Source: an uncultured Mycoplasmatota bacterium (GTDB lineage Bacteria > Bacillota_I > Bacilli_A > RF39 > UBA660). From it: a stretch of DNA of 34,950 nucleotides. The notes under the pieces are model-generated. The model was not told the origin of the DNA, made no database searches, and was given only the letters and a program-made list of their open reading frames with translations. This document shows positions 21,175 through 30,122 of this stretch, in pieces (position 1 is the stretch's first letter; every line of letters starts with the position of its first letter). A program made the position numbers and the translations under genes. Where the stretch lies: positions 1-34,950 of the forward strand of contig CANSRG010000009.1 of the NCBI GenBank assembly GCA_947649355.1. The letters run 5' to 3'.

Positions 21175-21804
21175 TTAACTTCCTAAATAAAAATTTTTTC
21201 GAGCATTATAAATATTATCATCTCCCCAACAAATATAAATCAAAGTAACTTGAGGTGCACTATGATTAAGCATTTTTTGGAGTGTAATGATATCTCCAGT
21301 TTTTTCATAAAACTGTCTTGCAAAATATTTTCGTAAACTATGAGGCCCTACTGTATAATTCACTCCAACTTTAGTTGCTAATTCTTTAACTATTTGCCAT
21401 GCTCTTTGTCTTGTTATTGGCTTATTTATACCTTTTCTTGATTTAAAAAGGAATTCTCCTGAAACCATTTTATTTCTATCGATATAACCTTTAATATCTT
21501 TCCATAAATTTGGATGTAGTTCAAATTGCTGTTCTTTTCTAGTTTTATATTCTCTAAGATAGATTATCCCGTTTTGGAAATTATCAACTTTTAACTGTAA
21601 TATATCCTCAATGCGAAATGCTGTGTTGATTCCTACAACTAAAATCATATAATTACGATCCCACAAATAAATTTTTGTTGCAGAACCAATTTCTTCTGCT
21701 TGTTGTCTGCTTTTTTTACAGTTTACCATCATGTTATTTATATCTTCTTCTTTAAACGGAACTACTGTTTTTTTTCCAAATGTGGTTCTAAAACGTCTCG
21801 ACAA
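21175..21804 (-). CDS. Short tyrosine recombinase (second integrase-like gene)
   Basis: The 209-residue protein is essentially a catalytic domain of the phage integrase family: Arg64 (AFRIEDIL), Lys87, His155-x-x-Arg158 (HSLRKYF), His181 and Tyr190 (LNHSAPQVTLIY). It lacks most of the core-binding domain, so it is shorter than normal integrases. It lies in the early region, far from the main integrase. Possible roles are resolving genome multimers, DNA inversion, or regulation; which one is unknown. Confidence 0.85.
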   Translation of the reverse strand: MSRRFRTTFGKKTVVPFKEEDINNMMVNCKKSRQQAEEIGSATKIYLWDRNYMILVVGINTAFRIEDILQLKVDNFQNGIIYLREYKTRKEQQFELHPNLWKDIKGYIDRNKMVSGEFLFKSRKGINKPITRQRAWQIVKELATKVGVNYTVGPHSLRKYFARQFYEKTGDIITLQKMLNHSAPQVTLIYICWGDDNIYNARKNFYLGS

Positions 21805-27245: not shown

Positions 27246-27482
27246 TCATTTTGTCTCCTCTTCTATTTCAATTTCTGGTTCACTCGTGCCAATATACTGT
27301 GATAGTAAGTATGGCGATATGTGATAGGTATAAGAACTGCTAGTTTTGACTGCAACCCCGAATTGAAAAGCTTTTTGTTGTAGTCCATATCGAATAAAAT
27401 CGATACCTTTTCCTAAAATCTTTGCTGCTAAATCACAAGGAACTTCTTTTAATTCCATGAGATTTATTTTTTTCTTAGTCAT
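27246..27482 (-). CDS. Excisionase-like HTH protein
   Basis: The 78-residue protein contains MELKEVPCDLAAKILGKGIDFIRYGLQQKAFQFGVAVKTSSSYTYHISPYLL, a pattern seen in small prophage proteins with an excisionase-like winged helix. AAAGGAGA precedes the ATG. It lies second in the early operon behind the Cro-like gene, a common place for excisionases or early regulators. Whether it is the excisionase of the downstream integrase is unknown. Confidence 0.7.
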   Translation of the reverse strand: MTKKKINLMELKEVPCDLAAKILGKGIDFIRYGLQQKAFQFGVAVKTSSSYTYHISPYLLSQYIGTSEPEIEIEEETK

Positions 27483-27503
27483 GTTATGTTCTCCTTTCTT
27501 TTG

Positions 27504-27713
27504 TTATGTACCATTTTCGTACATCCTGGGTAAAAAAATATCTTCGATTTTCATATCGAAATATTCAGCAATTAAAAACATCTCATCACTCTTAAAAGGA
27601 ACTTCTCCATTTATCTTTTTTCCTATTTGCTTATCAGAAATCCCTAATAAATTGGCTAACCAATGTTGAGTTAAATTCTTTTGTTTTAAGAGTAAAATTA
27701 ATTTCTTCTGCAT
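27504..27713 (-). CDS. Cro-like repressor, XRE family
   Basis: A 69-residue XRE-type HTH protein: LTQHWLANLLGISDKQIGKKINGEVPFKSDEMFLIAEYFDMKIEDIF. It is the first gene of the early operon, transcribed from a promoter facing away from the CI-like repressor, so it occupies the Cro position. It would bind the GTAC-centred operators and turn down the repressor promoter in the lytic cycle. Confidence 0.85.
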   Translation of the reverse strand: MQKKLILLLKQKNLTQHWLANLLGISDKQIGKKINGEVPFKSDEMFLIAEYFDMKIEDIFLPRMYENGT

Positions 27714-27734
27714 AAATTTTCTTCACCTCCTTGC

Positions 27735-27789
27735 TAGTACATTTTCATTTTAGTACGTATTAGGTACATTTGTCAAGAGCATTTAGTAC
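27735..27789. promoter_or_regulatory. Operator sites of the lytic/lysogenic switch
   Basis: Four copies of a GTAC-centred site occur at 27737-27740, 27753-27756, 27764-27767 and 27786-27789, three of them followed by WTTT. Centre spacings are 16, 11 and 22 bases. They cover the early promoter and lie upstream of the repressor promoter. Confidence 0.75.
27747..27776 (-). promoter_or_regulatory. Early (PR-like) promoter
   Basis: On the minus strand TTGACA (27776-27771), an 18-base spacer and TAAAAT (27752-27747) drive the Cro-like gene and early operon. GTAC operator sites fall inside the spacer and flank the promoter. Confidence 0.8.
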
Positions 27790-27825
27790 TTTTTTTAACT
27801 TTTTGTTCCAAAAACGTAAGTTTTG

Positions 27826-27834
27826 TGTTATACT
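27826..27834 (+). promoter_or_regulatory. Repressor promoter, extended -10
   Basis: TGTTATACT (27826-27834) is an extended -10 element just upstream of the repressor's ribosome binding site GGGAGGAAA. No good -35 lies at 17 bases. Confidence 0.65.
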
Positions 27835-27852
27835 ATCTTTGGGAGGAAAAAT

Positions 27853-28638
27853 ATGGGGAAAAATATTAATTTATTTATCGGAAAAAAAATAAAAGAGTTG
27901 AGAATTAAAAAAAACATAACTCAAGAAGAGTTGGGAGAATATCTAGATACTACATCTCAAACAATTTCTAGATATGAGAGTGGAAAACTTAAAACTAATC
28001 AAGATATCCTCTTCAAACTTGCAGAATATTTTAATGTTTCTATTAATGATTTTTTTCCGCCACTCAGCAATAATTTATCAGAGTTTTTAGGAGATGTTAT
28101 GTTTGATCAAAAGACCAGTATTACTGAATTATCTATATTAACTGGTATAGAAATGGAAGAAATAAAAACAATTTATAATAATCAAAATAAATTACCAAAA
28201 CCTTCATATATTATAAAAATATCAGAAGCACTTAATATAGAGCCTAAAAGTTTTTTAGCACATTGTGGTTACCTTGACGACGGAGTGGAAATGTACGACG
28301 ATTTATATGAAACTGGTATAAGATATTTATTAGACGAAAATGAGCGAAAAATATTATGTGAATATGTTTGCTCATATTGGAATGCCAAACAAGCTAAACA
28401 CGTATATACATATGAAGAAGTTTATAATGCTATTTTTGTTGAAGAGAAGAAAAACTTTTCTTATAATGAAGTTAAAAATATCCTAATACATAATACAAAA
28501 GATTTTGAAAATATTATTAATGTATTTTCTCAAAAAGTATGTGATGGGGACATTATTAATATTTCAGATTTAAGTGACAAGGATAAAGAACAAATTAAAT
28601 ATATGATTGATTTAATGCGAAATAACCAAAGTAAATAA
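27853..28638 (+). CDS. CI-like repressor with two HTH domains
   Basis: The 261-residue protein starts at ATG 27853 after GGGAGG; an upstream in-frame ATG at 27823 overlaps the promoter. The first XRE HTH is at about 6-60 (GKKIKELRIKKNITQEELGEYLDTTSQ...). A second HTH-like segment lies at about 75-130 (LGDVMFDQKTSITELSILTGIEMEEIKTIYNNQ), followed by a helical C-terminal region (LLDENERKILCEYVCSYWNAKQ...). It lacks a recognisable S24 autoprotease domain, so release of repression by RecA-stimulated self-cleavage is not evident. It is divergent from the Cro-like gene. Confidence 0.85.
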   Translation: MGKNINLFIGKKIKELRIKKNITQEELGEYLDTTSQTISRYESGKLKTNQDILFKLAEYFNVSINDFFPPLSNNLSEFLGDVMFDQKTSITELSILTGIEMEEIKTIYNNQNKLPKPSYIIKISEALNIEPKSFLAHCGYLDDGVEMYDDLYETGIRYLLDENERKILCEYVCSYWNAKQAKHVYTYEEVYNAIFVEEKKNFSYNEVKNILIHNTKDFENIINVFSQKVCDGDIINISDLSDKDKEQIKYMIDLMRNNQSK

Positions 28639-28645
28639 AAAGAAA

Positions 28646-28653
28646 GTACATTT
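28646..28653. promoter_or_regulatory. Isolated GTACATTT operator-like site
   Basis: GTACATTT lies 8 bases after the repressor stop codon, in the integrase leader. It matches the motif repeated in the switch region, so the repressor or Cro could also act here. Confidence 0.4.
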
Positions 28654-28689
28654 CACAAAAACAAAGTTAAAATCATTATTGCAAAACAC

Positions 28690-28715
28690 AAAAAAATCGA
28701 GTGCAGCAACACCCG
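28690..28715 (-). terminator. Possible minus-strand terminator in the integrase leader
   Basis: On the minus strand CGGGTG, loop TTGCTG, CACTCG form a 6-bp stem with one G-U pair, followed by A and seven T. No minus-strand gene lies upstream, so it may end an antisense transcript. Confidence 0.45.
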
Positions 28716-28719
28716 ACTC

Positions 28720-28846
28720 TAATTGGAGCATAACCCCAACTAAGAAAAAAATAAATCTAGGAAAAAATAAATTCTGGTCGAACTACTTTTTTCCATGCTC
28801 CAATTATATCAAGAAAAGACTTAATTATCAAGAAAAATTGGAGGTT
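28720..28846 (+). promoter_or_regulatory. Integrase leader with mutually exclusive stems
   Basis: TAATTGGAGCAT (28720-28731) pairs over 12 bp with ATGCTCCAATTA (28795-28806). The same CTCCAATT (28798-28805) can instead pair with AATTGGAG (28836-28843), the integrase Shine-Dalgarno. GGAAAAAA (28760-28767) / TTTTTTCC (28787-28794) forms an inner hairpin that stacks on the first stem. The layout suggests control of integrase translation by RNA folding. Confidence 0.55.
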
Positions 28847-28850
28847 TATT

Positions 28851-29915
28851 ATGGCAAAAAAGAAAGGAATTAAAAAAATTCCTCATGGATATGGAAGTAT
28901 CACTAAATTAAGCGGAAATCGTGCTAAACCATATATAGCAAGACTACCAAGACAAGAAATAGAAATAGGTGTCGTTTCAAGACCTATTCTAGGAACATAT
29001 AAGGAATATAAAGAAGCATATGATGCTCTTATGAAATATCATATTGATCCATATAAAATTGAACAAAAAGAGATTACATTTCAAGAAGGATATAATCTTT
29101 GGTGGGATTCTTTAGATAAAGTAATTGATGAAAAGAAAAAAATTAGTGATAGTAGTCGTAGTATTTACAAATCAATTTTTACTAATCACTGTAATAAAAT
29201 TAAACAAAAAAAAATGGTAGATATTACAAAATGGGAAATCATTGATTTAATAAATGAATGTGAAAAAGGTTTTGATACTAAAAGATATATTAAAATGCTT
29301 ATAAGCCAGGTTTTTAAGTTCGTAATAGAATTAGACGGGGCGGTCAAGAAAAATCCAGCTACAGGCATTAAATTAGGTTCTAAACCAAAATCTAATAAGC
29401 ACTTGCCATTTGAAAATAAAGAAATTGATCTTCTTTGGAAAAATATTGAGATACCATTCGTCAAGCATATTTTAATTTGTATATATACTGGATTGCGACC
29501 TGGCGAATTACTATTGTTACACAAAGATAAAGTATTCTTAGAACAGAATTATATGATAGCTGGCTTTAAAACAGAGGCTGGAACAGATAGGACTATCCCT
29601 ATTCATCCACGAATTAAAAATTTCATTCAAGAATTATATGATAACACGAATAATTATCTCATTTATAACACTAAAAATAAGGTAATGCGTTATGAGTACT
29701 TTTCTGATAAATTCCAAGAAGTAATGAATCAACTTCATTTAGAGCATTTACCGCACGACACAAGACACACGTTTGCTACTCTAGCAGATTACTACAATAT
29801 GAACCATGTATGTAAAAAACTAATTTTAGGGCATGCTCAAGCGGATATTACTGATGGTGTGTATACTCACAAAAACATTGATATGTTATTCGAGGCAATT
29901 TGCCTCTTACCTTAG
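28851..29915 (+). CDS. int: Tyrosine integrase
   Basis: The 354-residue protein has an N-terminal arm-binding domain (about 1-65), a core-binding helical domain (about 75-175), and a catalytic domain with Arg216 (TGLRPGELLLL), Lys240, His302-x-x-Arg305 (HDTRHTFAT), His328 and Tyr338 (GVYTH). All catalytic residues are present. RBS TTGGAGG sits 6 bases before the ATG. Its location at the end of the prophage, next to tRNA genes and followed by tandem repeats, is standard for the enzyme that inserts and (with excisionase) removes the prophage. Confidence 0.97.
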   Translation: MAKKKGIKKIPHGYGSITKLSGNRAKPYIARLPRQEIEIGVVSRPILGTYKEYKEAYDALMKYHIDPYKIEQKEITFQEGYNLWWDSLDKVIDEKKKISDSSRSIYKSIFTNHCNKIKQKKMVDITKWEIIDLINECEKGFDTKRYIKMLISQVFKFVIELDGAVKKNPATGIKLGSKPKSNKHLPFENKEIDLLWKNIEIPFVKHILICIYTGLRPGELLLLHKDKVFLEQNYMIAGFKTEAGTDRTIPIHPRIKNFIQELYDNTNNYLIYNTKNKVMRYEYFSDKFQEVMNQLHLEHLPHDTRHTFATLADYYNMNHVCKKLILGHAQADITDGVYTHKNIDMLFEAICLLP

Positions 29916-30032: not shown

Positions 30033-30046
30033 AAAGGCAAATTAAA

Positions 30047-30122
30047 TGGTGGCTCGCTCGGGATTCGAACCCGAGACCCTTTGATTAAAAGTCAAATGCT
30101 CTACCAACTGAGCTAGCGAACC
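30047..30122 (-). tRNA. tRNA-Lys (TTT)
   Basis: A complete cloverleaf: acceptor GGTTCGC/GCGAGCC, anticodon loop CTTTTAA with anticodon TTT, T-arm GGTTCGAATCC, and CCA encoded at 30049-30047. It is the last tRNA of the operon and nearest to the prophage. Confidence 0.97.

Follow-up and report, generated by a model that had tools for sequence, protein, structure and literature searches.

A predicted antisense RNA as a candidate translational attenuator of a prophage integrase gene

The leader of int, a tyrosine integrase gene (354 amino acids; 28851-29915, plus strand; PF00589, E=1.9e-13) in a prophage of an uncultured Mycoplasmatota bacterium, is likely targeted by an antisense RNA encoded in cis and would act as a translational attenuator of this gene. 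The opposite strand of the leader appears to encode a small antisense RNA, and the observations that carry this reading are a promoter and terminator module on that strand, the recurrence of the module before other integrases, covariation of the paired segments, complementarity of the leader to its own ribosome-binding site (RBS), and an effect on the accessibility of the RBS that is predicted by folding. The window is the whole stretch of 34,950 nucleotides (nt) that was analyzed (contig CANSRG010000009.1, positions 1-34,950, forward strand), and all the coordinates are numbered on it.

The int leader and the RNA module opposite it

The leader contains three mutually exclusive segments, that is, a 5' arm (28720-28731) that mimics the Shine-Dalgarno (SD) sequence, an anti-SD segment (28798-28805), and the SD region of int itself (28836-28843). 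These are given here with the accompanying hairpin and the elements predicted on the opposite strand, including the transcription start site (TSS) of the antisense RNA.

28720-28731, plus strand: 5' arm of the int leader (SD mimic), TAATTGGAGCAT, all of which the predicted antisense RNA covers (sequence check, repeat search)
28760-28767, plus strand: 5' arm of the inner hairpin, GGAAAAAA (sequence check, repeat search)
28787-28794, plus strand: 3' arm of the inner hairpin, TTTTTTCC (sequence check, repeat search)
28795-28806, plus strand: 3' arm, ATGCTCCAATTA, the partner of the 5' arm (sequence check, repeat search)
28798-28805, plus strand: anti-SD, CTCCAATT, upstream of the antisense TSS and so outside the antisense RNA
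28836-28843, plus strand: SD region of int, AATTGGAG (sequence check)
28826-28831, minus strand: -35 box of the antisense promoter, TTGATA (11/12 consensus matches, 17-nt spacer)
28803-28808, minus strand: -10 box of the antisense promoter, TATAAT with a TG extension, overlapping the anti-SD (promoter scan)
28690-28797, minus strand: predicted antisense small RNA of about 105 nt with hairpins and a terminator, TSS at about 28796-28797 (promoter, terminator, folding)
28690-28720, minus strand: antisense intrinsic terminator, stem 28720-28693 and U-tract to 28690 (terminator scan; covaries in homologues)
Minus-strand RNA: antisense 3' arm, CUCCAAUU, the complement of the leader 5' arm

The two outer arms form a perfect inverted repeat of 12 base pairs (bp), and in the minimum free energy (MFE) structure of the plus strand this stem (28720-28731:28795-28806) is formed with the inner helix stacked inside it. 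When the pairing of the anti-SD with the SD is forced, the energy is -30.8 vs -33.4 kcal/mol, a penalty of only 2.6 kcal/mol. The first-pass annotation, which had described a 12-bp stem, an anti-SD, an SD, and a stacked extra hairpin at these positions, was thus accurate in its parts, each of which was verified by the sequence check and the MFE structure.

The three-segment layout is real and is unlikely to be a product of chance, given that, when the leader was dinucleotide-shuffled 3000 times with an unchanged RBS, the full triple of 5' arm, anti-SD, and SD (8 nt per segment) never reappeared, while an anti-SD of 8 nt on its own was present in 269 of the shuffles. A Watson-Crick stem of at least 12 bp was likewise absent from all of 300 shuffles of the leader. 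The overall folding of the plus strand is unremarkable against shuffles (z -1.2 for the whole leader and z -2.2 over 28720-28846).

The minus strand carries an extended -10 sigma-70 promoter at 28831-28803 (TTGATA-17-TATAAT plus TG, an 11/12 match), and the antisense terminator was the sole terminator-like site found in 27400-28950. As these two elements mark its ends, an antisense RNA of about 105 nt is predicted, with its 3' end in the A-run 28690-28696, and the minus strand over 28690-28800 folds far better than its shuffles (z -5.7, reached by 0/200). The complementarity of the predicted RNA to the int leader would take in the entire 5' arm and stop just short of the anti-SD, which the RNA cannot reach because that segment falls within its own promoter. 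Given that the predicted 5' end sits exactly between the two alternative helices, the antisense RNA, and not a ligand, is the likely trigger of the change between them.

A type I toxin mRNA encoding a small hydrophobic peptide was also considered on this strand and rejected, as the 18-codon minus-strand open reading frame (ORF) of the window is unconserved and its homologues stop at once (e.g., ATG TAA in L029 and L225).

Recurrence and covariation across integrase leaders

In related gut Bacilli, integrases of 33-42% identity have leaders that are nearly devoid of sequence similarity and have an identical layout. To collect a first family, an integrase alignment was used to gather 159 distinct leaders, drawn from viral and genome contigs as well as from related genomes, which were scanned with a single fixed detector, composed of a promoter and a terminator, whose thresholds were fixed on this set and reused for the second family. 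The module was detected on the minus strand before 63 of the 159 integrases, on the plus strand before five (5/159), and in only one of 318 shuffled sequences; before other ORFs in the same loci it was found in 6/285 cases, and before XerC/D-type ORFs, the negative control, in 0/24. In these homologues the antisense -10 boxes cluster some 40 nt before the start of int, and nearly all the predicted transcripts are of 55-107 nt.

Locus L002, found by DNA match, turned out to have this layout before an integrase of another family (the second family). When this family was collected separately, the module was present in 27 of its 91 leaders, with two on the plus strand and one in 273 shuffles. The layout thus recurs before many phage integrases in the Bacillota and Fusobacteriota, where it may represent a widespread brake on phage integration and excision. 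A nucleotide search with the leader only returned short, mostly unspecific matches, except for the true homologues L002 (G012) and L003 (G030), and single-sequence integrase searches of viral and genome contigs returned nothing, whereas the alignment-based search did retrieve homologues.

The pairing is retained in the homologues while the leader sequences turn over freely. Across nine closer leaders, compensatory changes were found in 12 of the 21 pairs that make up the terminator stem, the small hairpin, and the stem of the 5' and 3' arms; none of 500 shuffles reached the real covariation score, and all the slid versions scored far lower. The covariation across integrase leaders that the first-pass annotation had envisaged was therefore found, and the pairing positions do not vary without compensation. 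The type of mismatch is also informative, as the non-standard cells of the terminator stem are mostly A-C on the plus strand, equivalent to G-U on the minus strand, and the mismatches of the anti-SD:RBS helix are mostly plus-strand G-U (53 vs 21 A-C). This pattern fits a minus-strand RNA that would finish at the terminator, together with a plus-strand mRNA that would form the anti-SD helix. In 54/60 homologues, folding is more favorable for the antisense strand than for the complementary one (mean z -5.3 vs -3.5).

The two exclusive pairings, which the first-pass annotation had proposed could leave the ribosome site of int either open or closed, are supported by a pairing test over 60 loci, in which the duplex energy of the plus-strand segment upstream of the antisense TSS with its own RBS was compared with that obtained with the RBSs of all the other loci. 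The anti-SD segment pairs with its own RBS at -7.1 kcal/mol, as opposed to -4.8 kcal/mol with the others (z -9.9, 0/2000 permutations), and this preference persists when similar leaders are collapsed to 31 clusters (z -5.7, 0/5000) and in the second family (z -4.8, 0/5000), i.e., it extends over dozens of homologues of unrelated sequence. The complementarity between the 5' and 3' arms is also locus-specific (z -9.8, and z -3.3 after collapsing). With a fixed window from -56 to -30, in which the promoter annotation is ignored, the first family gives z -13.4 with the module and -4.5 without it, and the second family z -5.3 and -1.2, respectively, and some of the leaders without a detected module may hold undetected ones. 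A k-mer test of whether the -10 variants TATAAT and TACAAT co-vary with ATAA and ACAA in the RBS, which ignores register, was not significant.

The binding of the antisense RNA was simulated by removing the part of the leader that it covers from the folding, with the opening energy of the RBS as the readout. Over the 60 loci, the simulated opening energy rises from 5.3 kcal/mol in the free leader to 9.9 kcal/mol in the antisense-bound one, with an increase in 54, while in chimeras of the leader of one locus and the RBS of another it goes only from 6.7 to 7.2 kcal/mol, with an increase in only 58%. Similar values were obtained by simulation for the second family (4.9 to 9.3 kcal/mol, an increase in 24/27; chimeras 6.1 to 6.6), and the window leader (L223) itself passes from 3.6 to 7.9 kcal/mol. 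As the matched leaders respond and the chimeras hardly do, the property belongs to the matched leader-RBS pairs.

Three other features of these loci were observed. L279, of the second family, and L027, of the first, carry antisense RNA modules of nearly the same sequence, and this likeness across families suggests that the leader module moves or shuffles between integrases. A GUCU-containing motif (AGAC on the plus strand), seen by eye, recurs in the loop of the antisense RNA in L064, L087, L090, L111, L225, L226, and L230, and is possibly a recognition loop. Finally, a DUF3800-VII RNA (RF02967) lies near the integrase at L279:1066-1160 (minus strand) and L027:1524-1619, several hundred bases away, and is a separate RNA; in L279 it follows an ORF of 172 amino acids that is MazF/PemK-like by eye.

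Proposed mechanism, alternatives, and prophage context

The production of both RNAs, their binding, the fall of Int, and the timing of these events are what we infer from the sequences. In the nascent leader, the 5' arm (28720-28731) would pair with the 3' arm (28795-28806), hiding the anti-SD and leaving the SD (28836-28843) usable, and this open form would be the default ON state, given that the order of transcription is 5' arm, 3' arm, and SD. Another promoter, located on the opposite strand, would yield the terminated RNA of about 105 nt that is complementary to the leader over approximately 28690-28797. Once bound, this RNA would occupy the 5' arm, and the freed anti-SD (28798-28805) would pair with the SD and shut translation (OFF). 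Translation is the likely level of control, as there is no plus-strand terminator (none was found in 27400-28950). In the quiescent lysogen, Int would be kept low despite the transcription of the operon, and on infection it could be made before the antisense RNA builds up.

A number of observations weigh against this attenuator. The module was undetected in 60% of the related integrases, some of the loci that do bear it (e.g., L066, L110, L114, and L203) have little or no pairing between the anti-SD and the RBS, and 6/60 loci have no rise in opening energy. The excess of G-U over A-C mismatches is shared in part, and more weakly, by cross-pairs. In addition, plain transcriptional interference on the sense leader is inseparable from attenuation with the present data.

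It is rather unlikely that the antisense RNA represses int in another manner, with the cis anti-SD being incidental, whether through direct pairing of its 3' arm CUCCAAUU with the int SD, cleavage of the duplex by RNase III, or interference between convergent polymerases. The 3' part of the antisense RNA does prefer its own RBS over those of other loci (z -3.2, and z -3.4 with near-duplicates collapsed), and the position of the convergent promoters, about 40 nt upstream of int, makes interference plausible, but the segment that is absent from the antisense RNA gives a much stronger signal (z -9.9 vs -3.2), which is replicated in the second family, where that of the antisense 3' arm drops to z -1.7. 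Direct pairing would also leave the RBS complementarity of the anti-SD, which lies upstream of the antisense TSS, unexplained. Direct pairing could also operate alongside the attenuator.

Far less probable is a plus-strand leader of the riboswitch type, switched by a ligand, a protein, temperature, or an ion without any antisense RNA. Alternative leader pairings do exist and are conserved, but what recurs is a promoter with a terminator on the minus strand, and the anti-SD complementarity tracks the presence of this module. No conserved core resembling a ligand pocket was noticed, and the leader sequences turn over while the pairing stays. The Rfam covariance models, including those of riboswitches, gave no match at the gathering threshold for the window leader and 38 homologue loci, only weak sub-threshold ones, in line with the view of the first-pass annotation that no named riboswitch is known to have this layout. 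Its proposal of an RNA switch controlling the translation of the integrase stands, then, in the exclusive pairings, and gives way as regards a leader acting alone, as the conserved entity is the antisense RNA gene on the opposite strand.

The least probable alternative of all is that the inverted repeats are DNA operators for a phage regulator (a repressor, Xis, or Int arm sites), with the RNA folding as a by-product. Such repeats do flank the antisense promoter together with an exact 11-bp direct repeat, TATCAAGAAAA, at 28807-28817 and 28826-28836 (19 bp apart), which spans the extended -10 and the -35. This repeat has no enrichment elsewhere in the window and was rejected as an operator, as the -35 and the extended -10 merely look alike. 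Unlike what is expected of a protein-binding site, the compensatory changes keep the pairing and not the sequence, and the G-U excess in the anti-SD:RBS helix (53 vs 21 A-C) also speaks against DNA operators.

The surroundings of int include two further features.

27823-28638, plus strand: helix-turn-helix (HTH) repressor-like gene, an ORF of 271 amino acids, co-oriented with int and upstream of it, the likely source of read-through transcription of int
30044-30097, strand not assigned: putative 54-bp attachment core within the 3' portion of tRNA-Lys, matched exactly by another copy on contig C40

In favor of the attenuator, 57/60 loci have a gene before the leader that runs in the direction of int, and its end often lies within a few nt of the antisense terminator. 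No plus-strand promoter with a score of at least 10.5 was found in the 330 nt upstream of int. With no recognizable dedicated promoter nearby, the integrase gene probably owes its transcription to read-through out of the repressor gene, a layout in which the leader would be transcribed together with int, as the first-pass annotation presupposed. The prophage is located at tRNA-Lys, where the 54-bp exact repeat (30044-30097 in the window, and 1178-1231 on contig C40 of the same genome, G000) coincides with the 3' part of the tRNA gene, and the copy on C40 fits the core expected at the opposite prophage end. A second tyrosine recombinase-like ORF, with 209 amino acids and without the N-terminal arm domain, lies in the early region of the prophage (21175-21804, minus strand; PF00589 match at G000:C9:21232-21741).

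Significance and comparison with known systems

In many phages and other elements outside the enteric models, int lies beside the repressor gene with no obvious promoter of its own, which raises the question of how a lysogen that transcribes the operon keeps Int off. An attenuator of this compact kind, lying ahead of about one in three of the integrases sampled across two families, would provide a general answer to this question. If this is true, the logic of plasmid copy-number control would be carried into phage integration, an RNA-based exclusion of superinfection or integration would be predicted, and an RNA part for recombinase control would become available. More tentatively, integrase-control antisense RNAs might be widespread in the temperate phages of the Bacillota and Fusobacteriota, with fast-diverging leader and antisense pairs that define "integration incompatibility groups", in which case the antisense RNA of a resident prophage would block the translation of Int from a related superinfecting phage, in a manner similar to plasmid incompatibility, and the level of Int would be set by the prophage copy number.

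Short cis-encoded or phage-encoded antisense RNAs are also found on the control genes of other mobile elements, such as RNAII of pMV158, OOP of lambda, sar of P22, and c4 of P1/P7 (PMC5703833, PMC12197685, PMC7067206), although those papers do not describe any of them as controlling an integrase by attenuation in its leader. The open-access literature yielded no account of integrase attenuation by an antisense RNA (subscription papers being outside this scope), and the antisense attenuator of phage integrases may thus be undescribed. In the case of RNAI of pT181 and RNAIII of pIP501, the likeness is that the antisense RNA occupies a pre-emptor and an alternative hairpin forms downstream (PMC5703833). 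The hairpin induced in those systems is a terminator, whereas that of the int leader would contain the SD and is followed by no U-tract in the sense direction, i.e., no induced intrinsic terminator was found upstream of the start codon.

The closest parallel in logic is RNAI of the staphylococcal plasmid pSK41 (RepA_N family), whose binding induces a stem-loop in the rep leader by which the ribosome site is sequestered, with no termination of transcription (PMC5703833); in both cases, an antisense RNA would lead to a leader with a sequestered RBS. In silico, the int module likewise has, facing the mRNA leader, a small counter-transcribed RNA delimited by a promoter and a terminator of its own; prediction and comparative statistics point to two exclusive leader folds, one of which sequesters the RBS, and the shift to this fold upon antisense binding appears as a simulated opening energy only. 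RNAI of pSK41 controls the replication initiator gene rep from about 100 nt upstream of the initiation region, whereas the antisense promoter of the int module lies about 40 nt from the start codon, with a -10 that overlaps the anti-SD. By analogy, then, the int module would work like RNAI of pSK41 but falls outside that plasmid system, given that its target is a phage tyrosine integrase (PF00589) and not a plasmid replication initiator.
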